Part shown: in pieces, positions 2,883 through 54,400 of the stretch | Numbering within the stretch: the stretch's first letter is position 1 | Layout: each line of letters starts with the position of its first letter | Virus record (IMG/VR): IMGVR_UViG_3300033997_000478 | Coordinates: 232,675 to 296,674 of that record | DNA from: a virus | Direction: 5' to 3' (one strand) | Length of the DNA stretch: 64,000 nt | The notes under the pieces: model-generated | The model's database searches: none | What the model was told of the DNA's origin: nothing | Seen by the model: the letters and a program-made list of their open reading frames with translations, nothing else | Made by a program: the position numbers and the translations under genes

Positions 2883-4430
2883 TTAGGCAGCCGCACGGTT
2901 GTCGGTGATGGACTCAACGGTCCATTCAGCGCCATCGGCGGTCAGCTTGAAGACCGAACCCACTTCCAGGTCTTCGACCAGGGCTTCGACGAACTCGCCG
3001 TCAACCTGGATCCACACAGCTTCGCTGGCGCCGCTGGAGAAGTTGCTCAGGTTGCCTTCGGCGTCACGAGCGGAGTACTCGAAGTCCGACTTCTCTTCAG
3101 CTTCGTCTTCGGACTGCACTTCCTCGGCCGGAGCAGCAGCCGGTTCTTCAGCCGGTGCGTCCTGGATGGACACGTTCTCGTCCGAACCGGCGCTGTCGGT
3201 GGCAGCTTCATCAGCCGCGCTGTTGTCGGCGCTGTCGACGTCGCCATCGGTGAAACCTTCTTCGTCGCCAACCGGGGCGGAGAAGGAAGCGATCATCGCC
3301 TGCGGCACTTCGCCGCCATCGGCAACCTTGGTGGCGCTGACGGTGTAGCTCACCACGACCGGATCGATACCGGTGGCCTGCTTACGCACGGCCTTGGCTT
3401 CGATGGTGTAGTCGCCCAGCAGGGCGCCGGCTTCATTGGTTTCCACGCTGCCGAAGGCCTGCTTGTAGGCCGACAGGCGCTGGATGTCCTGGTAGACCGA
3501 CTGGTCGCCCGAGACGAAGCCGTTGACGATGCGCAGATCGTTGGCGGTGTCGACGAAGACCAGCTTGCCGTATTCGCGCTTCAGGGCGAAGTTGAGCACG
3601 CCGCCGCCGGTACCGGCAGTGACCTTCAGGGAGATGTCGTACAGGTCGGTGATGGTCGAGCCGTTCTTCTTGTTCAGCAGGGCGAAGCTGTACGGCAGGT
3701 TCCAGTCGGCGGTTTCGCCGACCACCAGCGCGTAGCTGTTCTCGCTCGGAGCGACCAGGTTGGCGTTCTTGAACAGGCGGGCGCCGACGGCGATTTCCAG
3801 TTCACCGTTGTCGGCCACGATCAGCTTGCCATTCGGGTTGCCGGTGCCGGCAGCGAGGGTACCGTCGGCCTTCAGCGCCAGCGGCGCGGCGATCGGAGCA
3901 TTGACGACTTCTTCGACCGGGGTGATGATGCTGGTATCCTGCACGATGGCCTTGGCCACGTCCACGGCGAACTGGCCGGTGAAGCGCAGCGAGGTATCGG
4001 TGGCACGCAGCAGCACGCTGGTCGGCAGCTTGGTCGGATCAACGGTCACCGCAGCCAGGTCGGCGTCGCCGGCGACGGTCTCGAAGACGACCTTGACTTC
4101 GTCCTTGATCTTGGCAGCGATGCTGACGATGTCGATCGTCTCGCCTTCGGCAAAGCGCAGGGTCAGGTGCTTGTTCAGGAACAGCCGGCCCAGGTCGAGG
4201 CGGTTGTAGTGGATCGGGACCAGCAGGCCGGTTTCGCCTTCCGGCAGCACCACGGCTTCAGGAAGGGCTTCCTTCTTGATGGTGATGTCGATGTCGGTGT
4301 TGTAGTCGACGTCGGCCGAGGAGGTCGGGGCGCCGATGATCAGGTCGCTGACGGTGTAGCTGGTGCCGTTTTCTTGGTTGAGCAGCTGGACGATGGTTTC
4401 TTCACCACCGTGGATCAGTTCAATGGACAC
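2883..4430 (-). CDS. Large adaptor-module virion protein with acidic region (515 aa)
   Basis: The start is GTG at 4430 with AGGAG five bases upstream; the frame is open further upstream but that stretch reads as non-coding. Residues 1-170 are the shared module (IHYNRLDLGRLF near residue 72). A long beta-rich middle follows, then a strongly acidic Asp/Glu/Ala-rich segment at about 375-435 and a small C-terminal domain with EVGSVFKLTADG. Codon use is strongly biased to G/C-ending codons, as in the capsid gene, which suggests an abundant virion protein. It leads the minus-strand block and faces a plus-strand block across 120 bp. The exact role is unknown. Confidence 0.7.
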   Translation of the reverse strand: MSIELIHGGEETIVQLLNQENGTSYTVSDLIIGAPTSSADVDYNTDIDITIKKEALPEAVVLPEGETGLLVPIHYNRLDLGRLFLNKHLTLRFAEGETIDIVSIAAKIKDEVKVVFETVAGDADLAAVTVDPTKLPTSVLLRATDTSLRFTGQFAVDVAKAIVQDTSIITPVEEVVNAPIAAPLALKADGTLAAGTGNPNGKLIVADNGELEIAVGARLFKNANLVAPSENSYALVVGETADWNLPYSFALLNKKNGSTITDLYDISLKVTAGTGGGVLNFALKREYGKLVFVDTANDLRIVNGFVSGDQSVYQDIQRLSAYKQAFGSVETNEAGALLGDYTIEAKAVRKQATGIDPVVVSYTVSATKVADGGEVPQAMIASFSAPVGDEEGFTDGDVDSADNSAADEAATDSAGSDENVSIQDAPAEEPAAAPAEEVQSEDEAEEKSDFEYSARDAEGNLSNFSSGASEAVWIQVDGEFVEALVEDLEVGSVFKLTADGAEWTVESITDNRAAA

Positions 4431-4550
4431 AGGGTCTCCTTGTTTCGTGAACGAGTTGTTATTTGACTTGGGGGCCTTTGCATAGGATGAGACGTCCCAA
4501 GCTAAAAAATTAATGGTCTGACACCTTTCTATAGAGCCAGAGGACACGTT
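4431..4550. promoter_or_regulatory. Divergent intergenic control region
   Basis: This 120-bp AT-richer gap lies between oppositely directed genes starting at 4430 and 4551. It holds a TTGACT at 4463-4468, but no well-spaced -10 follows (TAGGAT is only 14 nt on). Promoters for both blocks are expected here; I cannot place them. Confidence 0.35.
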
Positions 4551-5087
4551 ATGTCTAACGTCTATCAATTCACACCCAAGACAGCACAAAGGCATATCAT
4601 GACCGACGGTGAGCGAGAGTCTGTGGTTCGCACTCTCAACGCTCGGGCACATGAAGCCTTCTTCCCCCTCAACCGGTTGTTCACTCGTTTTGCCATCACC
4701 GTCAACGAGTATCCGCTGGAGAATCCAGTCATCAAGGACTTGGAGAAGGTTGGCACGCTCATGACCGCCGACTATCCCAACTTCGATCTGACGTGGTTGT
4801 TTCGCATCGAAAAGATCCGCAGCAAACCCCGCATGCCGGCCATTCCCGATGACCAGATCTACGGGTTACTGAGAAAGGGCGCTGAGGCGTTGGGTTTGAT
4901 TCCCCATGGCGTCAGGTTTGCCTATCGCTACTTGCACGAGCTTGGTAGCGTGGTGTGGTGCGAATCGATCATTGTCATAGAGGACAGTATCATCGTGGAC
5001 GGCTTCATCGCAGCCGAACACTTGGGCGCAGAGGGAGATCGCACCTATCATCCGTTTAAGATGGTGGTCCGAAAACTGCCTCAATGA
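4551..5087 (+). CDS. Hypothetical protein (178 aa)
   Basis: ATG at 4551 is preceded by AGAGGACACGTT. The protein is mixed alpha/beta with no membrane segment and no motif I recognise (for example MSNVYQFTPKTAQRH at the start and a C-terminal IIVIEDSIIVDGFIAAEH strand pair). It opens the plus-strand block of small genes and is separated from the next gene by 72 bp containing a possible promoter. Small size and location in a cluster of unrelated short genes suggest an accessory or host-interaction role; this is inference only. Confidence 0.65.
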   Translation: MSNVYQFTPKTAQRHIMTDGERESVVRTLNARAHEAFFPLNRLFTRFAITVNEYPLENPVIKDLEKVGTLMTADYPNFDLTWLFRIEKIRSKPRMPAIPDDQIYGLLRKGAEALGLIPHGVRFAYRYLHELGSVVWCESIIVIEDSIIVDGFIAAEHLGAEGDRTYHPFKMVVRKLPQ

Positions 5088-5102
5088 AAATACTTTCAGG
5101 AC

Positions 5103-5108
5103 TATAAT
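5103..5108 (+). promoter_or_regulatory. Candidate -10 element TATAAT
   Basis: A perfect TATAAT lies 52 bp upstream of the ATG at 5160 in the gap between two plus-strand genes. The matching -35 position is poor (TCAATG), so this is only a candidate host-type promoter. Confidence 0.3.
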
Positions 5109-5159
5109 ACCTCAGTGAAGTAGTAGCACAAAAACCTACCCACTGACGGAGAGCAAGAC

Positions 5160-5726
5160 ATGTACAACAAGATCAAGCGTGAAATCCTGACCATCGCCAT
5201 CGTTCTGAACCGTATCTTCTACGGCCTGCACAATCGCAGCGAGAACTTCGGTCATTGGTTCTTCAATCTGACCCTGTATCGGGGTCGTCCGGGTTATGTC
5301 GAGTTCAACATCGACAATGATGAGTACGATGGCCACATCGTCCATCGCGTGACCCACCGCCAGTACCGCGATGAAGTCGGTGCTGAAGTCAACACGCAGG
5401 TGCAGGAGCGGATGACCTTCCGCATCACCAACCGCTGGCTGGTCCGCAATGGCCGTCTGCCGGACGTTGATGCGCTGTGGGCCATCTGCACCGATGCCCA
5501 GACCCGCGAAGGTCTGGTGGTCGTTGAGGTGGTCTGCGGTAAGGAAGCACACAAGCAGGTGAAGTTCCGTCCGTTCGATCTCTCGCGCCTGCCGCCGCAG
5601 GAAGTACTGGATCGTCGCAACGCTCGTCGCATGTGGGTGCAGAACTTCTTCAGCCGTCTGTTCCCGGTGGCTGCTGACGCACATCTGCACGAAGACATGC
5701 GTGGCTTCATCATCAAGCGCGTCTAA
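5160..5726 (+). CDS. Hypothetical protein (188 aa)
   Basis: ATG at 5160 follows GGAGAGCAAGAC. The sequence is basic and soluble in character, with many Arg residues and a C-terminal RRMWVQNFFSRLFPV segment. I do not recognise a family. It is followed 9 bp later by the first of the HKG-motif genes and so is probably co-transcribed with them, but it lacks the motif itself. Confidence 0.68.
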   Translation: MYNKIKREILTIAIVLNRIFYGLHNRSENFGHWFFNLTLYRGRPGYVEFNIDNDEYDGHIVHRVTHRQYRDEVGAEVNTQVQERMTFRITNRWLVRNGRLPDVDALWAICTDAQTREGLVVVEVVCGKEAHKQVKFRPFDLSRLPPQEVLDRRNARRMWVQNFFSRLFPVAADAHLHEDMRGFIIKRV

Positions 5727-5735
5727 GGTGCGGAC

Positions 5736-6005
5736 ATGATCGACATCTTGACCCTCTTTATCAACCCGATCAGCCAGATGCGCGGGCGTTACATTCACGC
5801 CCACAAGGGACGCGGGCGCAGGCGGGGACATCCCAAACCCTTCGAACCGTCCTCCAAAACGCGGCGGCGTCAGGAGGCGATGTTCCAACAGGCCCAGCAG
5901 GAACTCGATCTACGCCGGCAGTTGGATGAGTGGTTCAGTCAGAACATGGGTCGCATCAGCCCTGCCTTCGGCGTGATGTTGCAAAACCCTGAGAAGTCTG
6001 TATAG
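5736..6005 (+). CDS. HKG-motif small basic protein 1 (89 aa)
   Basis: ATG at 5736 with AAGGTG upstream. Residues 15-34 contain MRGRYIHAHKGRGRRRGH, the first of five copies of a basic motif shared by neighbouring genes (see the entries at 6090, 6677, 6863 and 7365). The rest is a charged, probably helical segment (RRRQEAMFQQAQQELDLRRQ). The very high Arg/Lys/His content suggests nucleic-acid or ribosome contact, but no known family is evident. A TTCG hairpin follows the gene. Confidence 0.68.
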   Translation: MIDILTLFINPISQMRGRYIHAHKGRGRRRGHPKPFEPSSKTRRRQEAMFQQAQQELDLRRQLDEWFSQNMGRISPAFGVMLQNPEKSV

Positions 6006-6036
6006 TTCGAATCACTGGCTTCGGCCAGGTTCCAAA

Positions 6037-6056
6037 CGAAGGTCTTCGGACCTTCG
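6037..6056 (+). terminator. TTCG hairpin terminator
   Basis: A perfect 8-bp stem CGAAGGTC closes on a TTCG tetraloop and is followed by GCTTTATA. It sits between the genes ending at 6005 and starting at 6090, so it may attenuate rather than end the operon. Confidence 0.6.
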
Positions 6057-6089
6057 GCTTTATACCCTCAACCTAGAAAGGATAGCTAC

Positions 6090-6434
6090 ATGAGCGTTAC
6101 CGTTGAAGATTTCACCACGGAGTGGAATCGCGAGCTGGATCGTCGCAATCGCTTCTCTCACATCCTGCGCGGCATTGCCCGTGAGAACGCTCAGTCGCTC
6201 AATGCGGCAGAGCTGAACAAGATGGAGATCGACGAGAAGATCCGTCAGGCCATCTACGTGTGGGCCCACCGCAATCAGCGCGGACGCTACCTGCACAGCC
6301 ACAAGGGTAAGGCGCGTCGGCAGCACAAGCGGACTCCGATGATGCAGTCGCAGGCCCGCTACCGGATTGCCCGGATGGTGGGGCGTGAGTCCCAGCGCAC
6401 CAGTAGTCTGGACCGGCTGCTGATCGCTGCGTAA
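6090..6434 (+). CDS. HKG-motif small basic protein 2 (114 aa)
   Basis: ATG at 6090 after AGAAAGGATAGCTAC. The motif QRGRYLHSHKGKARRQHKR lies at residues 67-85, directly after a helical segment (KIRQAIYVWAHRN). The N-terminal half is a charged helix-rich region unlike the other members, so only the motif is shared. It has its own flanking hairpins at 6037 and 6453, suggesting independent dosage. Function unknown; the conserved basic patch suggests RNA, DNA or ribosome binding. Confidence 0.7.
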   Translation: MSVTVEDFTTEWNRELDRRNRFSHILRGIARENAQSLNAAELNKMEIDEKIRQAIYVWAHRNQRGRYLHSHKGKARRQHKRTPMMQSQARYRIARMVGRESQRTSSLDRLLIAA

Positions 6435-6452
6435 GTAACAGCGGTAACACAG

Positions 6453-6476
6453 GGGCGGGTGCGGAAGCATCCGCCC
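6453..6476 (+). terminator. Rho-independent terminator
   Basis: A 10-bp stem with one G-T pair (GGGCGGGTGC / GCATCCGCCC) and a GGAA loop is followed by TTATTCTTTCTCTTTCT. It ends the gene at 6434. Confidence 0.75.
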
Positions 6477-6509
6477 TTATTCTTTCTCTTTCTCACAAGG
6501 AACGCTACA

Positions 6510-6680
6510 ATGAAAACCATCGAGAATTCCGTTCTGGAAATGGCCGAGCAGATCAAGGCCGGTATGAAGGTCACCGAAGAGGGCCTGATCGAAGCGGGCG
6601 ACATGCACATTGGTTCGATGTCACCTACTCGTGATCAGATGGCGGCCGGTCACATGACGCAGGTTGCGGTGAAGTCATGA
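6510..6680 (+). CDS. Small hypothetical protein (56 aa)
   Basis: ATG at 6510 is preceded by AAGGAA at 6497-6502, which fits better than the upstream in-frame start at 6459, because that one lies in the preceding terminator. The protein is acidic and helix-prone (NSVLEMAEQIKAGMKV) with no known motif. Its TGA overlaps the ATG of the next gene (ATGA), so the two are translationally coupled; an acidic partner for the strongly basic 60-residue HKG protein downstream is a reasonable guess. Confidence 0.6.
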   Translation: MKTIENSVLEMAEQIKAGMKVTEEGLIEAGDMHIGSMSPTRDQMAAGHMTQVAVKS

Positions 6681-6859
6681 GGTTCCGTTACGTAATGGAC
6701 GTGCGGATTGCTCAGGCGCTCTACCTGCGCGGTAAGTACGTGCACAGTCACAAGGGCAAGTACAAGCGCCGTCACAGGCGAGCATCGGTGGCACGCGTGG
6801 TGCCGCAGATCTTCGTCGGTGAAATCCACTTCGCAACCACTGTTGTTACCCCGGAGTAA
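6677..6859 (+). CDS. HKG-motif small basic protein 3 (60 aa)
   Basis: The shortest member of the set. It overlaps the upstream gene by 4 nt. Residues 15-33 are YLRGKYVHSHKGKYKRRHRR-like and make up a third of the protein, preceded by a short helix (MDVRIAQAL) and followed by a hydrophobic tail with VVPQIFVGEIHFATTVV. That the protein is little more than the motif indicates the motif folds or acts on its own. No family recognised. Confidence 0.68.
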   Translation: MRFRYVMDVRIAQALYLRGKYVHSHKGKYKRRHRRASVARVVPQIFVGEIHFATTVVTPE

Positions 6860-6862
6860 GCC

Positions 6863-7336
6863 ATGGTTACCGACTCAGTTATCCCCGTGTGTGATTGCGG
6901 CAAGACCGTTGGTGCTTCCAAGGTGGGCTTGATGTGTGAGCACTGCAACAGTCCGGTAAAAGCTGTCGTCGATCTGTTCCTGCCTTTAGCGACGTCTTCC
7001 TACAGGCGGATGAGGACCCGTGAGACGGTCAAGAACATCATGACCGGGCCTGCACCTGAACAACCCAAGTCCCCCTACCCGCGCCGCAACCCGGCGCGCA
7101 TTCCTGGCGCCTACGAACGAACCATCTGGGGCCTGGAGAAACGCGGCAAGACCTACAGTGTCGACCAGCTGCTTCGTGGCCGCTACGTCCTGCGTCACAA
7201 GGGCAAGCCGCTGCGGCAGCACAAGCTCACCTCCAAGGGACATCTCCACCTCGGCATGCGCGAGATCCTGGCGAACGAACCGCGCCTGCTCGTCACCATC
7301 AATCGCATGCCGAAGTTCAACCCTTTCGTTGTCTAA
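6863..7336 (+). CDS. Zinc-ribbon plus HKG-motif protein (157 aa)
   Basis: ATG at 6863 after GGAGTAAGCC. Residues 10-29 hold a four-cysteine pattern, CDCG...MCEHC, typical of a small zinc ribbon such as those at nucleic-acid-binding ends of transcription or primase proteins. A linker rich in Pro and Arg follows, then LRGRYVLRHKGKPLRQHK at about 105-122. This is the only member joining the motif to a recognisable domain, and it supports a nucleic-acid role for the family. The gene starts 4 nt after the previous stop. Confidence 0.68.
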   Translation: MVTDSVIPVCDCGKTVGASKVGLMCEHCNSPVKAVVDLFLPLATSSYRRMRTRETVKNIMTGPAPEQPKSPYPRRNPARIPGAYERTIWGLEKRGKTYSVDQLLRGRYVLRHKGKPLRQHKLTSKGHLHLGMREILANEPRLLVTINRMPKFNPFVV

Positions 7337-7364
7337 TCGATTCGCCCCCACAAGGACCGCACCA

Positions 7365-7808
7365 ATGAATGACCTTCCCACCCACCACAACGAACGCATC
7401 GTCCCAACGTTCGTCAGTCCTGATGATTCGCGTCTGCAAGGGATCGAACATCGTGACAACTGGTACGAGCCGCGCAATGACGCAGAATGGGCTGAAGTGA
7501 CGAAAGATCAAGCCACTGCCAAGTGGCTGATCGCTAACCATAAGGCGAAGATGCGCAATGAACTGCGCGGGCGCTTTGTGCACATGCACAAGAGCCGTCG
7601 TTTGCGTAAGCATGCTCGTCGCGCCGGCCACTACCACTTCCACGCCCAACTGATGAATGACCAGAACATCCTGAGTCTTCAGACGGGTCTGCTGAGGTGG
7701 AGCGCTCGCCAGCCGGTTCGACTGATGGGTGAGTCCGAAGTTCGCTTGGTCCAAGTTGTTGTTTCGCCCTCCGTAATCACCTCTCTCCTGAAGGATTCTG
7801 ATCTATGA
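7365..7808 (+). CDS. HKG-motif basic protein 5 (147 aa)
   Basis: ATG at 7365 with AAGGA at 7352-7356; the longer in-frame extension to 7158 overlaps the previous gene and is not expected to be coding. The motif here is LRGRFVHMHKSRRLRKHARR at about residues 66-85, with Gly replaced by Ser. The N-terminal half is acidic (NWYEPRNDAEWAEV), the C-terminal third is hydrophobic-basic. It overlaps the DUF4262 gene by 4 nt. Function unknown. Confidence 0.68.
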   Translation: MNDLPTHHNERIVPTFVSPDDSRLQGIEHRDNWYEPRNDAEWAEVTKDQATAKWLIANHKAKMRNELRGRFVHMHKSRRLRKHARRAGHYHFHAQLMNDQNILSLQTGLLRWSARQPVRLMGESEVRLVQVVVSPSVITSLLKDSDL

Positions 7809-8323
7809 GCAATGAACAGCGCGTCAATGACGAACTGGAACGACAGCGCGATCGCTACCGTTCCATGATGAAGAACCACGGCTACGCACTGGTGACAGTG
7901 GAGGATGATGACAATGATCTTCCCTTCCACTACACGGTGGGGCTGACCAACGGCGGCCTGCCGGAACTGCTGTTGGTTGGCAAGTTCGAACGCCCGGTGG
8001 CCGAGCACATCCTCAACAGCGTGGCCGCGATCCTGATCGGTCGTGGCGCCACCAACCAGTTGGGTCAGTACAGCCAGATCAAGCTCACCGATCTACTGGC
8101 TGATGCCGAAGACCGGCCGATCCCGCTGCGCCTGCAGCTGATCAACCAAGCCGAGGCGGAACGGATGTACCTGATCCAAGCCGAACCCATCCTCCAAGAC
8201 CATCTGGTGGGTGTGGTGCAGATCCTGACGCCGGACAATTGGGGACGCTATCCGGACGATTCGGGTTACAACTTCAACGACTACCCGCAGGTGCTGGCAG
8301 CACCAAAGGCCTACAGCCAATGA
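7805..8323 (+). CDS. DUF4262 domain protein (172 aa)
   Basis: ATGA overlap with the upstream gene. Residues 22-110 match the DUF4262 pattern as I know it: HGYALVTVEDDD, then FHYTVGLTNGGLPELLLVG and a run of hydrophobic helices with LNSVAAILIGRG. Proteins of this family occur in many bacteria and phages without an assigned biochemical role. The C-terminal part (LQDHLVGVVQILTPDNWGRYPDD) is also typical of the family. It is the ninth gene of the plus-strand accessory block. Confidence 0.8.
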   Translation: MSNEQRVNDELERQRDRYRSMMKNHGYALVTVEDDDNDLPFHYTVGLTNGGLPELLLVGKFERPVAEHILNSVAAILIGRGATNQLGQYSQIKLTDLLADAEDRPIPLRLQLINQAEAERMYLIQAEPILQDHLVGVVQILTPDNWGRYPDDSGYNFNDYPQVLAAPKAYSQ

Positions 8324-9357: not shown

Positions 9358-10950
9358 TTACAGGGGCAAACCAGCAGTGACGCCACCGGGTGCATGCCAC
9401 GGAATCTCCTCACCACTACCCATCGGACCGCCGCCGGGTGCTTTGAGGGAGATGTCCGCCTTGCCGTAGTCATCGCGGATGTCGGCAATGGGACTGAACG
9501 GCAGCACGGTGTAGCGATGACGAATCGGAGTATCGCGCGGCTTACGGTGCTTACCACGCTGGATCGTCAGGAACGACTCTTGGTTAATGACTTCCTTGTG
9601 GATGAAGATCTCCAGATCCACCTCTTGGTCAATCGTACCGCAGGAGTCGTAGTAACCCTTGCCTTCCAGATGCTTGACGAAGTCGTTGACGCCCAGGCGG
9701 GTCATCTTCTTCGCTTCAGTGGACAGCTGGGCCGGGGTGATGAAGGTGATACCGCGCGGAGCAGTGAAGTTACGAACACGACGGAACAGGTCACGGATTT
9801 CCGAACCGGTCGGACCGCCCTGGATGCAGCCTCGCTTGGAGATCATGTTCAGGTAGTCAAAGACGATGGCGTGGATTTCATAGCCCTGCGACTCCAGCGC
9901 CGTGATCATGTCAAAGATGCGCTCGTAGGTCATCTCCGACGGATCGCAACGGCCCATCATCACGTTGTAGCCATTGACCGACATCTTCTCGTAGATGTAT
10001 GCCTTGGCCTCGTCGATGGCCGCCTGCTTGATCAGCGGGTCCGGATCGGAGAACATGGCCGTCGGTGCCAGCTGGCCGGTCTCGTTCTCGTACAGGTAGC
10101 GGTACAGCTGCACGATGTTCAGCTGCAGCTCGTTCTCAGCCGAGATATGCAACAGCAACGGCTTCTTGGTCGGGTCACGCATGTACGGGGTGTTGTACAG
10201 GGCGATCTGACGGAACAGGTGCAGGGTGAAGCCGGTCTTGAAGTTGTGCTGCAGTGCGCCGATCAGGACGAACTCACCACGACGCAGGCCTTGGTGTTCG
10301 CCGAGCATGCGATTGATCGCCTGCCAGCCCAGACGCAGAACACCTTCCAACGAGGTTTCCTCACCGGCCCGGTTGATCAGGCGGGAGATGTTGTCACCGT
10401 CAGACAGATCGACCATGTCAATCATGCCGCCGATCTTGAACTCTTCGGAGGTGTTGTTGCGGTACGGGTCGAGCTTTTCGTGGACTTCACTGATCAGGCT
10501 GGACCAGTTGACCTTCTCCGGATTGAAGTTGGCCTTATAGGAGAACTCTTTGAGGATCTCCTTGATCTTGGTCTGATTGACGTAGTCGCGCAGCTCCATG
10601 CGCTGGGCCATGCAGCGCTTTTTCAGGACGATCAGGTCGGTGGTGTCACCGATACCCTGCTCGAACCCGTAGTACAAACCTTCTTCATCCGAAGAATTGA
10701 CACGTATTCTTTGAAGAACAATCGTACGATCCAGCTCTTCGCCGGGAGCGCGTTCTGCCATCCACTCCACGGTACGTTTGAGATTCAGCAAGATCTCACG
10801 GGATCGATCGAAGTCGACGCCGGGCTCGCCGAACTTGATGGTCTCCAGCACTTCCTGCACGAGGTTGACCGAATGGATCGTCGGATCTTTCAGTTGGCCC
10901 TCGTTGAACAACAGTGTTGCTAGTTTGACCAGAAGCAGCTTGGGGTCCAT
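9358..10950 (-). CDS. DnaB/gp41-like replicative DNA helicase (530 aa)
   Basis: An N-terminal helical domain (1-190) is followed by a RecA-fold motor. The P-loop reads GALQHNFKTG with K238-T239 retained but the usual Gly before Lys replaced by Phe. Next come LLLHISAENE (switch region after strand 2), the Walker B strand IHAIVFDYLNMIS, and the TPAQLSTEAKK sensor motif. This order is that of hexameric replicative helicases such as DnaB and T4 gp41. A proline/glycine-rich tail closes the protein. ATG at 10950 faces a plus-strand gene 31 bp away. No primase is visible beside it. Confidence 0.82.
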   Translation of the reverse strand: MDPKLLLVKLATLLFNEGQLKDPTIHSVNLVQEVLETIKFGEPGVDFDRSREILLNLKRTVEWMAERAPGEELDRTIVLQRIRVNSSDEEGLYYGFEQGIGDTTDLIVLKKRCMAQRMELRDYVNQTKIKEILKEFSYKANFNPEKVNWSSLISEVHEKLDPYRNNTSEEFKIGGMIDMVDLSDGDNISRLINRAGEETSLEGVLRLGWQAINRMLGEHQGLRRGEFVLIGALQHNFKTGFTLHLFRQIALYNTPYMRDPTKKPLLLHISAENELQLNIVQLYRYLYENETGQLAPTAMFSDPDPLIKQAAIDEAKAYIYEKMSVNGYNVMMGRCDPSEMTYERIFDMITALESQGYEIHAIVFDYLNMISKRGCIQGGPTGSEIRDLFRRVRNFTAPRGITFITPAQLSTEAKKMTRLGVNDFVKHLEGKGYYDSCGTIDQEVDLEIFIHKEVINQESFLTIQRGKHRKPRDTPIRHRYTVLPFSPIADIRDDYGKADISLKAPGGGPMGSGEEIPWHAPGGVTAGLPL

Positions 10951-11788: not shown

Positions 11789-14059
11789 ATGTCCTCTCTG
11801 AAGCTCAAGGGTCGGAACCAGGCCCCGCTGACCAAGCTGGCCCACACCCTGAAGGCGAACATCGCCACCCAGGGCGCTGACTTCGTCTCCGCCGGCCAGA
11901 CCAACACCCTCATCTCGATGGAAGGCTTCTCCGATGCGCAGGCTGCCAGCCTGCAGAGCACCTTCGACCAGGTCCGCAGCGACATCCGCGACGAACTGAA
12001 GAAGTTCAAGCTGGGCGCCGGCTTCGGCTTCGAAGCCCTTGCCGACGGCTGCGAAGATCCGGAAGCCATCCGTCAGCTCGACACCGCGCTGGACGCCGGC
12101 GCCATGGCCGCCATGGCTGCGGGCAACCCGGTTGCCTACGCACAGCAGGCCTACAACGGCCAGCCGGTTGCCACCGGCGAGAACGTCACCCTGGTCGACA
12201 CCATGGCCCTGCAGGGCGGTGCCAACTCGATGGACTACCGCGCCAACGTGGCGATGGAAGCCTTCAACGAGCAGGAACTGCGTGATCACCTGCCGTACTC
12301 GATCCTGTTCAACGTCTTCGCCTCGCGCCAGGACGACTTCAGCGAAATGCTGTTCCCGACCACCGTCGTGCCGCCGGATCAAGCCGGTCTGGACATCACC
12401 GTGGCCCGCATGCAGGTCTTCAACGAAGTCCGTCACCAGGCCTCCGGCGCCAAGATCGACTTCGGCAAGCGCAACCTGATCGACGCCGCCATCGACCACA
12501 CCATCCTGGCCGATGAGCACACCCGCCTGGTCCCGGTCGTCCTGGAAGACGGCAGCAACGCCGACAAGTTCGTCGACGAAGCCGTGGTTCCGACCTTCTT
12601 CCAGCGCGTGGGCAACTTCGACGTGCCGACCTCGGCGCTGAAGCTGGATGAAACCATCGACCTGCTGGGCATCTCGCAGTGGCAGCCGCTGCTGGGCGCT
12701 GGCGTGATCGACCACTCCGACGACGTCGACGCTCGCGTCGTGCTGTCCGAGCTGTACCTGCAGTCGGCCGACGGCGCCGTTGCTGTCAAGTTCCCGGTCG
12801 AGCGTCTGGCTCGCAACCAGTTCAACAAGACCACCGAAGGCAACAGCCGCCTGACCGGTCTGCAGTTCACCTCCACCGACCTGGTCATCGACAAGAACTC
12901 GAAGGCCCTCGACGGCACCGACGTCGCCGCGTTCGCCGGCATCGTCACCGGTGAGTACACCGTGCGCCTGTCGGTCAACGTGTCGGGTGAGCTGAACCAC
13001 GAGTTCGGCAACATCAAGGTCTGGGCCTCGAAGGTCTCGGTCGCCTCGATCCAGGACAAGAACGGCAATGCCATTCCGACCTCGGCCGGTGCCGGCAAGG
13101 CCGTCGCTGATGCCCTGAAGCCGCTGTCCATCATCGGCTACACCATCCGCGCCAACCGTACCAACGCCAACAAGCGTACCCGTGGCCACCTGCTGGACAC
13201 CGTGTACGAAACCCAGCGCTACACCATCCCGCTGGGCAGCCCGCTGTCGATCACCTCCCCGGTGAGCCATGGCGATGCCCGCGACGCCGCTGACCAGAAG
13301 ACCCTGATCGCTGCCGCTCGTATGCGCAACAGCAACAACGCGGTCACCGCGCTGTTCGCCATTGCCGACCAGCTGCGCGAAGTCACCAAGGGTCCGAAGC
13401 TGCCGGCCGGTGAGTACTGCGGCGTGGGCGGCCTGGGCCGCTTCCTGGTCGATCCGTTCTTCGAAGAGCACACCGTCGACCTGGTGCAGTGCCTGAACAG
13501 CATCAAGTCGCAGGACCGTGCGCTGGACATCAGCTCGGTGCTGGTCAACGTGCTGCGTGACATCGCCTACCGCATGTACCGCGACACCAAGATCCAGCCG
13601 GCGATCGACGCCCAGACCGGTACCACCGGCGAAGCTCCGATCCTGCTGGTCGGTACCGACCAGGTGCTGATCCGTCACCTGCTGATCAACGGCGACAGCC
13701 GCACCTTCGGCACCGTGTTCGACAAGGCCGTCGTCAAGGCCTCGCTGGACCGCCGCATGTACGGCAAGATCGTCCTGACCCTGACCCGCGCCAACGCGGA
13801 AGGTCCGGATCCGCTGACCTTCGGTACCCACGCCTGGATGTCGGAACTGATCGCCACCATGCCGATCAGCCGCAACGGCGCCACCACCAAGGAAGCGACC
13901 GTTCAGCCGCGTACCCTGCACATCAACAACATGCCGGTCCTGGCCATCGTGTCGGTGAAGGGTCTGTCGAAGGTCCTGGTCGACAAGACCAGCACCCCGG
14001 CGATCGCTGCTGCCGTCACCAACGTGTACCTGGACGGCCTGAAGTACCCGACCCTGTAA
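11789..14059 (+). CDS. Major capsid protein candidate (756 aa)
   Basis: The protein starts at an ATG with AAGGAA upstream. Codon use is almost entirely the G/C-ending optimal set, the strongest in the window, as expected for the most abundant virion protein. A helical N-terminal region (about 1-130) could be a delta-like scaffold segment. It is followed by LPYSILFNVFASRQDDFSEMLFPTTVV, a motif style I associate with large-phage capsid proteins, and by long alpha/beta HK97-like stretches. It stands alone between its own leader and a strong hairpin. Identification rests on length, codon bias, context and motif style, not on a database match. Confidence 0.72.
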   Translation: MSSLKLKGRNQAPLTKLAHTLKANIATQGADFVSAGQTNTLISMEGFSDAQAASLQSTFDQVRSDIRDELKKFKLGAGFGFEALADGCEDPEAIRQLDTALDAGAMAAMAAGNPVAYAQQAYNGQPVATGENVTLVDTMALQGGANSMDYRANVAMEAFNEQELRDHLPYSILFNVFASRQDDFSEMLFPTTVVPPDQAGLDITVARMQVFNEVRHQASGAKIDFGKRNLIDAAIDHTILADEHTRLVPVVLEDGSNADKFVDEAVVPTFFQRVGNFDVPTSALKLDETIDLLGISQWQPLLGAGVIDHSDDVDARVVLSELYLQSADGAVAVKFPVERLARNQFNKTTEGNSRLTGLQFTSTDLVIDKNSKALDGTDVAAFAGIVTGEYTVRLSVNVSGELNHEFGNIKVWASKVSVASIQDKNGNAIPTSAGAGKAVADALKPLSIIGYTIRANRTNANKRTRGHLLDTVYETQRYTIPLGSPLSITSPVSHGDARDAADQKTLIAAARMRNSNNAVTALFAIADQLREVTKGPKLPAGEYCGVGGLGRFLVDPFFEEHTVDLVQCLNSIKSQDRALDISSVLVNVLRDIAYRMYRDTKIQPAIDAQTGTTGEAPILLVGTDQVLIRHLLINGDSRTFGTVFDKAVVKASLDRRMYGKIVLTLTRANAEGPDPLTFGTHAWMSELIATMPISRNGATTKEATVQPRTLHINNMPVLAIVSVKGLSKVLVDKTSTPAIAAAVTNVYLDGLKYPTL

Positions 14060-52100: not shown

Positions 52101-52508
52101 CTGTTCCCAGTTGACGCGACGCGGGTTGAGCAGCTTGTTGGACAGGATCTCCAGGATCTTCTCGGCACTGATCGTCCACACACCGCCCAGGGTCTGGTAG
52201 TTGTACTCGATCGCACCTTGCAGGGTCTGATCGTAGAACACGAACGAACCGTAGATGCGATCTGCACACGCCAGCGAGGCGTCGTGGAAGTAGTGGCCCG
52301 GCGCCCAGTCCTGACCTTGGATCAGTTCTCGACGGGAGGGCAGCAGGTACATCTTCACCGAGTCAGCGAAGTACGGGGCCGCCGCCGGAAGAACGAAGTG
52401 GTACTGACCCAACTCAGGCGGTGCGATCGGCTGACGCTCGGCCGTGATCTTGTTGGTAGCGGCCTTACCCGTCGGGTCAAACGGGTAGGCAACTTGAGGG
52501 TTGCTCAT
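49149..52508 (-). CDS. Long tail fibre with NPH repeats (1119 aa)
   Basis: ATG at 52508 with GGAG upstream. The N-terminus parallels that of the downstream fibre (FDPTGKAATNK, then VNWEQIVNLPIAFP and an HLDD stretch), so the two share a virion anchor. Six clear repeats and one degenerate repeat (NPHQVTAEQVGAYDKAT) form the shaft, residues about 180-575. The outer part (about 580-1119) is unique, beta-rich and Asn/Thr-rich, ending in a strand-turn region with FSDYNGILYQSQ. No S74 domain is present, so this fibre must fold by another route or with a separate chaperone. Confidence 0.85.
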   Translation of the reverse strand: MSNPQVAYPFDPTGKAATNKITAERQPIAPPELGQYHFVLPAAAPYFADSVKMYLLPSRRELIQGQDWAPGHYFHDASLACADRIYGSFVFYDQTLQGAIEYNYQTLGGVWTISAEKILEILSNKLLNPRRVNWEQIVNLPIAFPVIDHEWHLDDMVGAKELEAALNGIRDAILASGSEGLTNHINDKNNPHQVTKSQVGLGNVQNYPVADIATAQAGVSNSHYLTVLRGAQMMQALYGNRMDQHINDSNNPHNTTKAQVGLSNVENNPTATQAEAEAGTATNRFLTVLRGKQLVDIFAVAPLNTHINNKNNPHAVTKAQVGLGNVQNFGKADTVAAQLGVADDVVMTPLTTKAAIDAIALAPITSHVNDTNNPHNTTKAQVGLDQVPNFGPATQAEAEEGNVNNKLLTVLRGRQMVAALFQPTITNHINDSSNPHGTTKAQVGLANVPNFAAADDMQALAGTANNLLMTPRGVALYVANNGGGSSGPELAAHLADLNNPHQVNKEQVGLGNVDNFKTATSIEAQGGTLNNVWLTPLTGKALIDATIGVSLTQHTGARNNPHQVTAEQVGAYDKATTDNKLNAKLDKTGVAADSTKFAGQTYAQVMEALAPMVTYPANTSSVGNSWTKLGSTVIPSNLLANPVPDIVAYVTGGDDYARLASSTYLIRLSPRAMGRSSVTLMEEESNANVVFGYVYTDVTNGKELTLYMRTNGPRQAATATVLSQNASNQFYVNTNSVTNAEPAGIVYLSRVLPPYANPRATFGDVNFGDFPGSANRNQIVGSLVEQVPVATTDADELTIRGLSNSVKDDYPQWLPSSAAGNQNYYADQQILDDWVWDDTAGAIQLETTTVPNTGALLSPEASLNYTFEVDVSSNFDAAKGAGVIAASVVSGGRQYTLAVIRTPGGMNKISDQPGGEVYTLLSVVLNPLQNDGRKIAGKNGLLKWGDGQVQDTRPPADFIEAGKGWSTNGATRIRVKRAGNILTIDTSQYGATAYVASEQIVIDLADTPTLSMFVDAPSQWGLISLRQPNVSFKVVSRPRQYKDYIRIGATGDKDKQRYYTYNGTAWEYAYLGINHPAARPGRLYFSDYNGILYQSQRNARLRPVLVEAYTRSNTTFMTP
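50790..51970 (-). repeat. Seven fibre repeats (NPHxxTKAQVGLxxV)
   Basis: Six intact and one degenerate unit at roughly 190-nt spacing. They are homologous to the array at 47690-48510 in the adjacent gene. Confidence 0.8.
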
Positions 52509-52636
52509 TGTTGAAATTCTCCAGCGAGGACGCCATCGTATGGCACGATGTTAAAATATACGTGTACCATAACATAGCTATTTGGCCCCCACTGGTACGC
52601 GTTTAAAGACCCACATTTCTCAGGAGTTTCCATCCC
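52509..52636. promoter_or_regulatory. Divergent intergenic control region
   Basis: A 128-bp gap between a minus-strand fibre gene and a plus-strand gene. An AT-rich island, TTAAAATATA at 52551-52560, stands out in GC-rich surroundings and could hold a -10 for either direction. AGGAG at 52622-52626 serves the plus-strand gene. Confidence 0.4.
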
Positions 52637-53881
52637 ATGTCTTACACGCTTGTAGCGGCCAAAGCCCGCTCTCGTGGGCTCGATGCTGAGTGGGCCGAGG
52701 TCGACATTTCCGCAGTGACGATCAAGGTTCTGTTTGAGCGCTACGCCCGCATCTGGGTCACGCTCACGCACCCGACGCTGGTCAAGCCCGAGTACCTCGA
52801 GCTGAGCACCATGCGCGATGAGCTCTCCAGTCAGCACTACATGAACACCGTCCAGCAGTGGCTGGACACGCTGGGCAACCGAGCACTGCCCACCGAACCG
52901 GTGCTGCCCGAACTGAAGCTGCGACGCGTCCATTATCAGGATGCATGGCGCAGTGGCTACGACATCAAGCCGATCGATCGTTTCCGTGCTTCTGATGCCG
53001 AGCTTCCGGAAGGGGCCAAGAACGATCTACTGCTGTCCAAGGAAGGCATCGACTTCCGCAGTCAGTGGCGCTACTGCATGGTCACCGTCAACGGCTTCTT
53101 CCATCGCGTCGGTGGTCAGATCGAAGGTCTGGAAGTGATCGACGGTGCACGCTCGGGCCGCATCGCCAATGACAACGCCGTGGGTATCCATTCCTTCAAG
53201 GAAGTCGGCGCGTTGGAGTACATCCCGATCACCCCGCAGATGATCTACCGACTGGACAGTCGTCAGAAGTACGCTGACGCCATGCACATCCAACTGCCGG
53301 CCGGTTCGGAAGGCAAGACGGTTCTGCTGGTGATGGGCGGCTACCTGCATGTGCTCGATGACATGTACTCCCGTCCGAGTCCGAACAGCATCCGCATCAA
53401 CACCAAGCTGCTGGCACTGCCCGAGCGCATCTTCGAGAGTCGCAAGTTCATCGATCTGTCCAGCCTGCCGATGCAGTTGCTGGAAGGTGACAAGAACGTG
53501 TTGGGCGTGCAGGATCTGTACTCCGACGAAAACCTGGTGGCGTACATGTGCTTGCCGCAGTCCTATCTGGTCATGCTCAAGACCGAGGACTTCTTCTTGC
53601 GTCGTCATCCGGTGACCTCCTGCGGTCTGCCGGGTCGCTTCCTGGTGCCGGGTGAGAACAAGCGCTTCCCGCTGTTCGGCGGACTGGGTCGTTGCTACGA
53701 TCACCGCGTGTTCAACGACTGGGGCACGCAGGTTCTGGCGACCAACGACAACTGGCGCTTCAACTACCTGTTCCGCACCACGCACTGGCGCGAGAACCAA
53801 ACCATCGACGATTCGCTGGAAGGTAACAACCACAAACAGTTTGTGGACGCCTTCTATCTGGAAATGGGTCGTTTCCAATAA
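52637..53881 (+). CDS. Putative structural protein (414 aa)
   Basis: ATG at 52637 with AGGAG at 52622-52626. The protein is a mixed alpha/beta chain with many Tyr, Phe and Trp and no recognised motif. The features include YCMVTVNGFFHRVGGQIEGL and TVLLVMGGYLHVLDD. It stands alone on the plus strand between the fibre block and the spike block, facing both. Baseplate or neck protein is a reasonable expectation from position only. Confidence 0.65.
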   Translation: MSYTLVAAKARSRGLDAEWAEVDISAVTIKVLFERYARIWVTLTHPTLVKPEYLELSTMRDELSSQHYMNTVQQWLDTLGNRALPTEPVLPELKLRRVHYQDAWRSGYDIKPIDRFRASDAELPEGAKNDLLLSKEGIDFRSQWRYCMVTVNGFFHRVGGQIEGLEVIDGARSGRIANDNAVGIHSFKEVGALEYIPITPQMIYRLDSRQKYADAMHIQLPAGSEGKTVLLVMGGYLHVLDDMYSRPSPNSIRINTKLLALPERIFESRKFIDLSSLPMQLLEGDKNVLGVQDLYSDENLVAYMCLPQSYLVMLKTEDFFLRRHPVTSCGLPGRFLVPGENKRFPLFGGLGRCYDHRVFNDWGTQVLATNDNWRFNYLFRTTHWRENQTIDDSLEGNNHKQFVDAFYLEMGRFQ

Positions 53882-53891
53882 GCGGCATAAA

Positions 53892-53915
53892 GCAGGGGCC
53901 CTTCGGGGCCCCTGC
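53892..53915. terminator. Bidirectional hairpin GGCATAA...TTATGCC
   Basis: A 10-bp stem GCAGGGGCCC with a TTCG loop lies between convergent genes. The outer flanks GGCATAA and TTATGCC are themselves complementary, making the best example of the recurring palindromic element. Confidence 0.82.
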
Positions 53916-53917
53916 AC

Positions 53918-54400
53918 TTATGCCGGCATGACGGCGAACGGTACGCGACTCATGAACAGACGGGTGGTGAGCTCGCCCACCACCTTGAACCCCAGCGACG
54001 TGTAGAGCTTGATGGCAGCGGCGTTGCCCGGCATGACGTAAAGCGTCTGCAAATTGTGGTGCTGGATGTATTGCGTTGCCAGACCCAGGCCGCGGTAAGT
54101 CGGGGCGATGAAGATCTGCCCCAAATGCAGTCGGTTGGCATCATAGCGAGCATACCCCACCAACTCGTCGAACAGATAGATGCCCTCTACCTTCAGGTTG
54201 TACACCATGGAGCGATGCAGACGCAGTACATCCTTGTCGACATCGGTGTTGTCAACCAGATTCCGGCAAAGGAACGGACTCAGATCCTCCCAACTGATCG
54301 GTCGATACTCGGGAGCCTTCTGAAGCTGTAGCTTGCGAGTGAGGTACTTAGCATCCGGCTTCGGTGGGTCGATTTTACCAAAACGATAGTAGTGGTCCAT
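53918..54400 (-). CDS. GNAT-family N-acetyltransferase (160 aa)
   Basis: The ATG at 54400 overlaps the stop of the upstream spike gene (TAATG). The acetyl-CoA-binding signature IAPTYRGLGLATQYI (motif A, R/Q-x-x-G-x-G/A) and the following VMPGNAAAIKLYTSLGF motif B region are clear. The substrate cannot be read from sequence. Coupling to a virion spike gene suggests co-production late in infection; it may modify a phage or host protein. An N-terminal basic region (about 1-60) precedes the domain. Confidence 0.82.
   Translation of the reverse strand: MDHYYRFGKIDPPKPDAKYLTRKLQLQKAPEYRPISWEDLSPFLCRNLVDNTDVDKDVLRLHRSMVYNLKVEGIYLFDELVGYARYDANRLHLGQIFIAPTYRGLGLATQYIQHHNLQTLYVMPGNAAAIKLYTSLGFKVVGELTTRLFMSRVPFAVMPA

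Follow-up and report, generated by a model that had tools for sequence, protein, structure and literature searches.

A short basic patch on otherwise dissimilar small proteins of a LucasX-like jumbo phage

Five neighboring small genes in a viral genome carry the same short basic patch, which raises the question of whether they form one family, how far such a family extends, and what the patch could be for. The analysis covered a 64 kb stretch (hereafter the window), which corresponds to bases 232675–296674 of a phage record of 324,428 bases. The source genome, 324 kb in size, is that of a phiKZ-like jumbo phage. Among named phages, the closest relative is Xanthomonas phage LucasX (vB_XciM_LucasX, MW825358), which is itself a phiKZ-like jumbo phage. 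To our knowledge, most genes in jumbo phages are without known function. Coordinates of the genes discussed, along with their immediate surroundings, are summarized in Table 1.

The patch and the proteins that carry it

The patch has the consensus L-R-G-x-[YF]-[VIL]-H-x-H-K-G-[KR]-x-x-[RK]; aligned, the copies of the five window genes read RGRYIHAHKGRGRRRGH, RGRYLHSHKGKARRQHK, RGKYVHSHKGKYKRRHR, RGRYVLRHKGKPLRQHK, and RGRFVHMHKSRRLRKHA. Column statistics taken over 21 patch copies give Gly in 19/19, Lys in 21/21, His in 19/21, Arg in 17/19, and Tyr or Phe in 19/20, with Arg or Lys at column 18 in 21/21. Codons of the invariant residues vary (GGG, GGA, GGT, and GGC for Gly; CGC and CGT for Arg), and because this variation is synonymous and falls at the third base, selection on the patch acts at the protein level. 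The proteins are small (60–163 aa), with a pI of 9.5–11.6 across the 13 for which it was computed, and the position of the patch differs among members: near the N terminus, in the middle, or at the C terminus.

Table 1. Features of the patch cluster and neighboring genes, in window coordinates.
Feature	Position	Strand	Remarks
Early-promoter-like element	5094..5117	+	TTTCAGGACTATAATACCTCAGTG; lies shortly before the 188-aa gene and patch cluster
188-aa gene	5160..5726	+	no patch; left slot border; LUCX_279 orthologue
Patch gene 1	5736..6005	+	89 aa; pI 11.4; patch RGRYIHAHKGRGRRRG at 5781-5828
Terminator-like hairpin	6020..6065		between patch genes; read by eye
Patch gene 2	6090..6434	+	114 aa; pI 11.3; patch RGRYLHSHKGKARRQH at 6279-6326
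Terminator-like hairpin	6451..6478		between patch genes
Small ORF	6510..6680	+	56 aa; no patch; within cluster; overlaps start of patch gene 3; read directly
Patch gene 3	6677..6859	+	60 aa; pI 11.3; patch RGKYVHSHKGKYKRRH at 6728-6775
Patch gene 4	6863..7336	+	157 aa; zinc ribbon at N terminus, followed by patch RGRYVLRHKGKPLRQH at 7175-7222
Patch gene 5	7365..7808	+	147 aa; pI 10.1; patch RGRFVHMHKSRRLRKH at 7566-7613; starts at ATG 7365, not with the longer mechanical ORF beginning at 7158
DUF4262 gene	7805..8323	+	right slot border; LUCX_280 orthologue; PF14081, E 8.8e-17
DnaB-like helicase	9358..10950	-	67% identical to LucasX counterpart
Major capsid protein	11789..14059		74% identical to LucasX counterpart

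All five genes singled out by the first-pass annotation carry the patch where it had been placed. A profile trained solely on 14 patch copies from other phages, run against 1097 window frames, recovers 5/5 of them as its top matches (31.7, 29.3, 22.0, 18.6, and 16.2 bits; E 7e-9 to 5e-4), against a best score of 7.2 bits over 20 residue shuffles of the same frames. A pattern search of the 324-kb genome returned seven matches, and the reversed-pattern control zero. Together with the search of bacterial genomes described below, the reversed-pattern and shuffled-profile controls rule out chance or Arg-rich composition as the source of the patch. One further frame near window position 1316 (12.9 bits) was not counted; it is without the RGxY half and runs antisense to a likely gene.

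The statement that these genes share little else also held: once the 19 residues surrounding HK are masked, any likeness left between two window genes stays within the range of the shuffled control. Unmasked, patch genes 2 and 3 align at 48% over 35 aa, including about 10 helix residues preceding the patch. Two orthologous pairs do align beyond the patch, G3_37091 vs. own178 (36% over 75 aa) and G3_41602 vs. LUCX210 (33% over 63 aa).

The first-pass annotation knew no family with this motif, and none was found in Pfam, NCBIfam, PHROGs, or the PDB. Comparison of the patch with Pfam, NCBIfam, PHROGs, and PADLOC produced sub-threshold matches only, the Rfam search gave zero matches, and the patch proteins bear no likeness to any known RNA- or DNA-binding family. 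Matches to Glutaredoxin, Vsr, and oligonucleotide cyclase were dismissed as sub-threshold singletons, and the PDB profile search picked out the segment LHEHKGKKAR of a RAF kinase (E about 0.7), which we attribute to chance. AT-hook peptides are similar in being short basic segments, and an R-G-x or K-G-R-P core occurs in some patch members, but the third residue is free (R, K, L, H, D, V, or Q) and the core Pro is missing in most. We did not class the patch as an AT-hook, which requires a G-R-P core, whereas the consensus here is R-G-x-[YF] and K-G-R-P is found in a minority, after HK. Two outcomes had been named in advance as counting against the motif, a known generic domain or matches at chance level, and neither occurred in the profile searches.

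Distribution among phages and recurring genomic slots

One short profile unites 22 proteins of five related phages, their patch unmatched in family libraries, into one family: eight in the source phage, six in G003, four in G001, and two each in G004 and LucasX. The LucasX copies, LUCX_210 and LUCX_226, carry the same patch at corresponding slots and are annotated as hypothetical only. Three of the source-genome copies lie beyond the window, at contig positions 178336, 180458, and 197121.

A profile search found zero patch copies in seven additional phiKZ-like phages from the phage collection, and 30 of 33 further phiKZ-like records, including phiKZ, OBP, PhiPA3, and Goslar, are patch-free, several of these negative records being fragments. 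A single weak profile match in G027 (E 0.096) was excluded from the count. When members were compared with 50,697 phage records by tblastn, LucasX was the sole match; three other pattern matches on viral contigs were isolated frames and were set aside. In 257 Gb of bacterial genomes, a degenerate DNA pattern gave 42 isolated matches vs. roughly 60 estimated for random sequence, and the best bacterial match reached 22.6 bits, without family context, whereas the 13 members that make up the profile score 32–44 bits. Since the patch is absent from the other phiKZ-like records and bacterial matches are at chance level, the family appears restricted to the LucasX-like clade.

Patch copies recur in three neighborhoods, all among replication and nucleotide-metabolism genes: those of RecJ, the LUCX_211 orthologue, and DnaB. 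In the RecJ slot, LUCX_226 directly follows RecJ in LucasX, a G003 copy (G3_54367, at 54.4 kb) comes immediately after RecJ (52403-54160), and the source phage has its 197-kb copy (own197) 2.6 kb beyond RecJ (192767-194500). Between this RecJ and the 197-kb copy, at contig 195981-196652 (L111:5982-6653), we noted a gene with a sub-threshold Macro-domain match (E 6e-4). In the second slot, LUCX_210 precedes LUCX_211 in LucasX, and the orthologue of LUCX_211 has three G003 copies ahead of it (at 37.1, 37.4, and 41.6 kb); in the source phage, of own178 and own180, one stands before and one after it, and in G004 both copies lie between dCTP deaminase and this gene. The DnaB slot, bounded by the LUCX_279 and LUCX_280 orthologues, holds five copies in the source phage and one in G003; LucasX differs in having none. 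In G005, the 188-aa gene is followed directly by the next conserved gene with zero copies between them, and G004 has neither the 188-aa orthologue nor a patch copy in this slot. A whole-genome search found the patch only in small ORFs, the large replication proteins being without it. Judged by their sequences, the patch proteins are a lineage-specific, fast-turnover family whose sole conserved part is one basic module with a predicted helix end and loop.

Beyond what the first-pass annotation contained, these results add the boundary of the family, eight copies in the genome, gain and loss slot by slot, and a probable early setting of the cluster, to which we now turn.

Early-promoter-like element, zinc ribbon, and structure models

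The motif TATAWTACC has one occurrence in the 64 kb, against 0.04 expected. At the orthologous place, LucasX (L017:9415) carries CCTGAGAACTATATTACCTTGGTG, with two mismatches relative to the source element. Both elements resemble promoter sequences tabulated for N1M2, OBP, 201phi2-1, and phiKZ, those of OBP being described as early (PMC7058600), and the virion RNA polymerase is presumed to recognize such motifs where they precede early operons (PMC7598289). From the element, we infer that the patch cluster is expressed early. Co-transcription from 5094 is not assured, because terminator-like hairpins stand between some of the cluster genes. No early-promoter-like element was found near the source copies at 178-180 kb and 197 kb. 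In G001, early-promoter-like elements (L112:3221, 5256, and 9651) lie upstream of a region with a three-gene patch cluster.

The first-pass annotation had also pointed to a 60-residue member and a zinc-ribbon member, which are patch genes 3 and 4, respectively. The N-terminal ribbon of gene 4 (C-x-C-x12-C-x2-C) has Cys spacing identical to that of phage RNA polymerase beta', matches phrog_2987 (E 5e-4), and, in a three-sequence BLAST search, aligns locally with beta' of LucasX, the source phage, and G001 (E 8e-7 to 3e-5). Membership in this ribbon family extends to the gene 4 N terminus only, the other patch members being ribbon-free. The segment at window 6863-6960 resembles the source phage's own beta', apparently copied into a small protein.

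In the AlphaFold2 model of gene 2, a long helix (residues 5-69) ends in RGRYLH; after it come a basic loop containing SHKGKARRQHKR and then another helix (83-113); mean pLDDT is 81 and pTM 0.41, with pLDDT only 64-73 over residues 61-114, which include the patch. For gene 3, whose structure prediction had been suggested earlier, a helix at 3-26 is modeled at low confidence (pLDDT 63). Both models are weak (pTM 0.32 and 0.41), and both place a helix before a basic loop. A Foldseek comparison of the helical model with the PDB gave zero matches.

Candidate roles of the module

Our main reading, at a rough probability of 0.45, is that these are early accessory proteins whose module binds nucleic acid, most likely rRNA or the ribosome. 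The module of about 20 residues would comprise a helix end, R-G-x-[YF]-[VIL]-H, with a basic loop after it, x-H-K-G-[KR]-x-x-[RK]. It would settle onto a nucleic-acid surface, with Arg and Lys touching the backbone and the aromatic residue and His inserting or stacking, while the variable parts may give each protein its own effect in accessory host-takeover or replication-phase roles. Within a small number of set genomic slots, copies come and go and multiply in tandem. Nucleic-acid binding is the best single guess because of the charge, the conserved aromatic residue and His, the basic loop after a helix, and the early-type setting. Against it stand the weak models without a PDB match, the missing likeness to RNA- or DNA-binding families, the hairpins within the cluster, and the negative search for a promoter-like element near the source copies at 178-180 kb and 197 kb. 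We would guess rRNA or the ribosome first as partner and DNA second; the ribosome leads because an early phiKZ protein works there. That protein, PHIKZ014, binds the 50S subunit, where it engages rRNA with Arg/Lys, Trp, and two inserted His residues (PMC10914614). The likeness is one of functional analogy, not membership: both would be early proteins of phiKZ-like phages aimed at a host machine, but PHIKZ014 is larger and multi-domain, and a search of the phiKZ genome with the patch profile gives no match.

The first-pass annotation had proposed a common partner for the five proteins. One conserved basic module, dissimilar small proteins, no family in the libraries searched, protein-level selection, and occurrence in four related phages are as that proposal predicts, but the same picture would arise from divergent paralogues that had preserved nothing but a shared functional core. 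With some doubt, we entertain the possibility that in the patch this phage lineage has a short binding module of a new kind, attached to unrelated small proteins, one of them with the polymerase-like zinc ribbon, as an interchangeable tag to one target such as the ribosome, phage DNA, or the phage nucleus. It is unlikely, in our estimate, that the patch is instead an address tag for one protein partner (the phage RNA polymerase, or else the shell of the phage nucleus or its import machinery) and no binder of nucleic acid. A short conserved module on unrelated proteins does resemble a docking motif, gene 4 couples it to a polymerase-like ribbon, and the slots lie among replication and nucleotide-metabolism genes; against this, the large replication proteins are patch-free, the patch is missing from other phiKZ-like phages, including several in which a nucleus is known to form, and a term search of the import-pathway paper finds no mention of a linear import signal. 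Similarly improbable is that the members descend from one small domain, with the patch as no more than its slowest-evolving part, and that, having diverged as paralogues, they now act differently with no shared partner. Such descent would account for the two orthologous pairs that align beyond the patch and for the preceding helix common to genes 2 and 3, but not readily for the loss of all flank similarity among the five window genes on masking, the differing position of the patch, or the retention of invariant residues while wobble bases vary freely.

A further alternative is that these are basic proteins that condense DNA and are packaged in the virion. Their strong positive charge is compatible with this, but an early-promoter-like element precedes the DnaB-slot copies, and copies are missing from most relatives and vary in number, so that we consider it very unlikely. 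Least credible to us are remnants or small relatives of mobile HNH or Vsr-like nucleases coming and going in intergenic slots: slot-bound gain and loss, the H-x-H-K motif, and one very weak Vsr match in a single member (E 0.074, below the cut-off) are set against proteins that are too small, a conserved acidic residue that is absent, a first His that is replaced in several, and no nuclease match in Pfam, NCBIfam, or PHROGs.

The profile points to residues for mutation, and one slot offers a natural series of 0, 1, and 5 copies. Should the module turn out to attach to rRNA, DNA, or the phage nucleus, a single mutation test would reveal the target of every member at once.

Two minor observations concern the flanks of the cluster. 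To its left, at window 2883-4652 (minus strand), diverged paralogous proteins stand in a tandem row, as they also do at LucasX L017:5311-8787 and G004 L184:6574-8851, their number differing between phages. To its right, the DUF4262 protein is stand-alone in the source phage, whereas in LucasX (LUCX_280) and G003 (L167:6886-7824) it has an N-terminal extension of about 130-150 residues.
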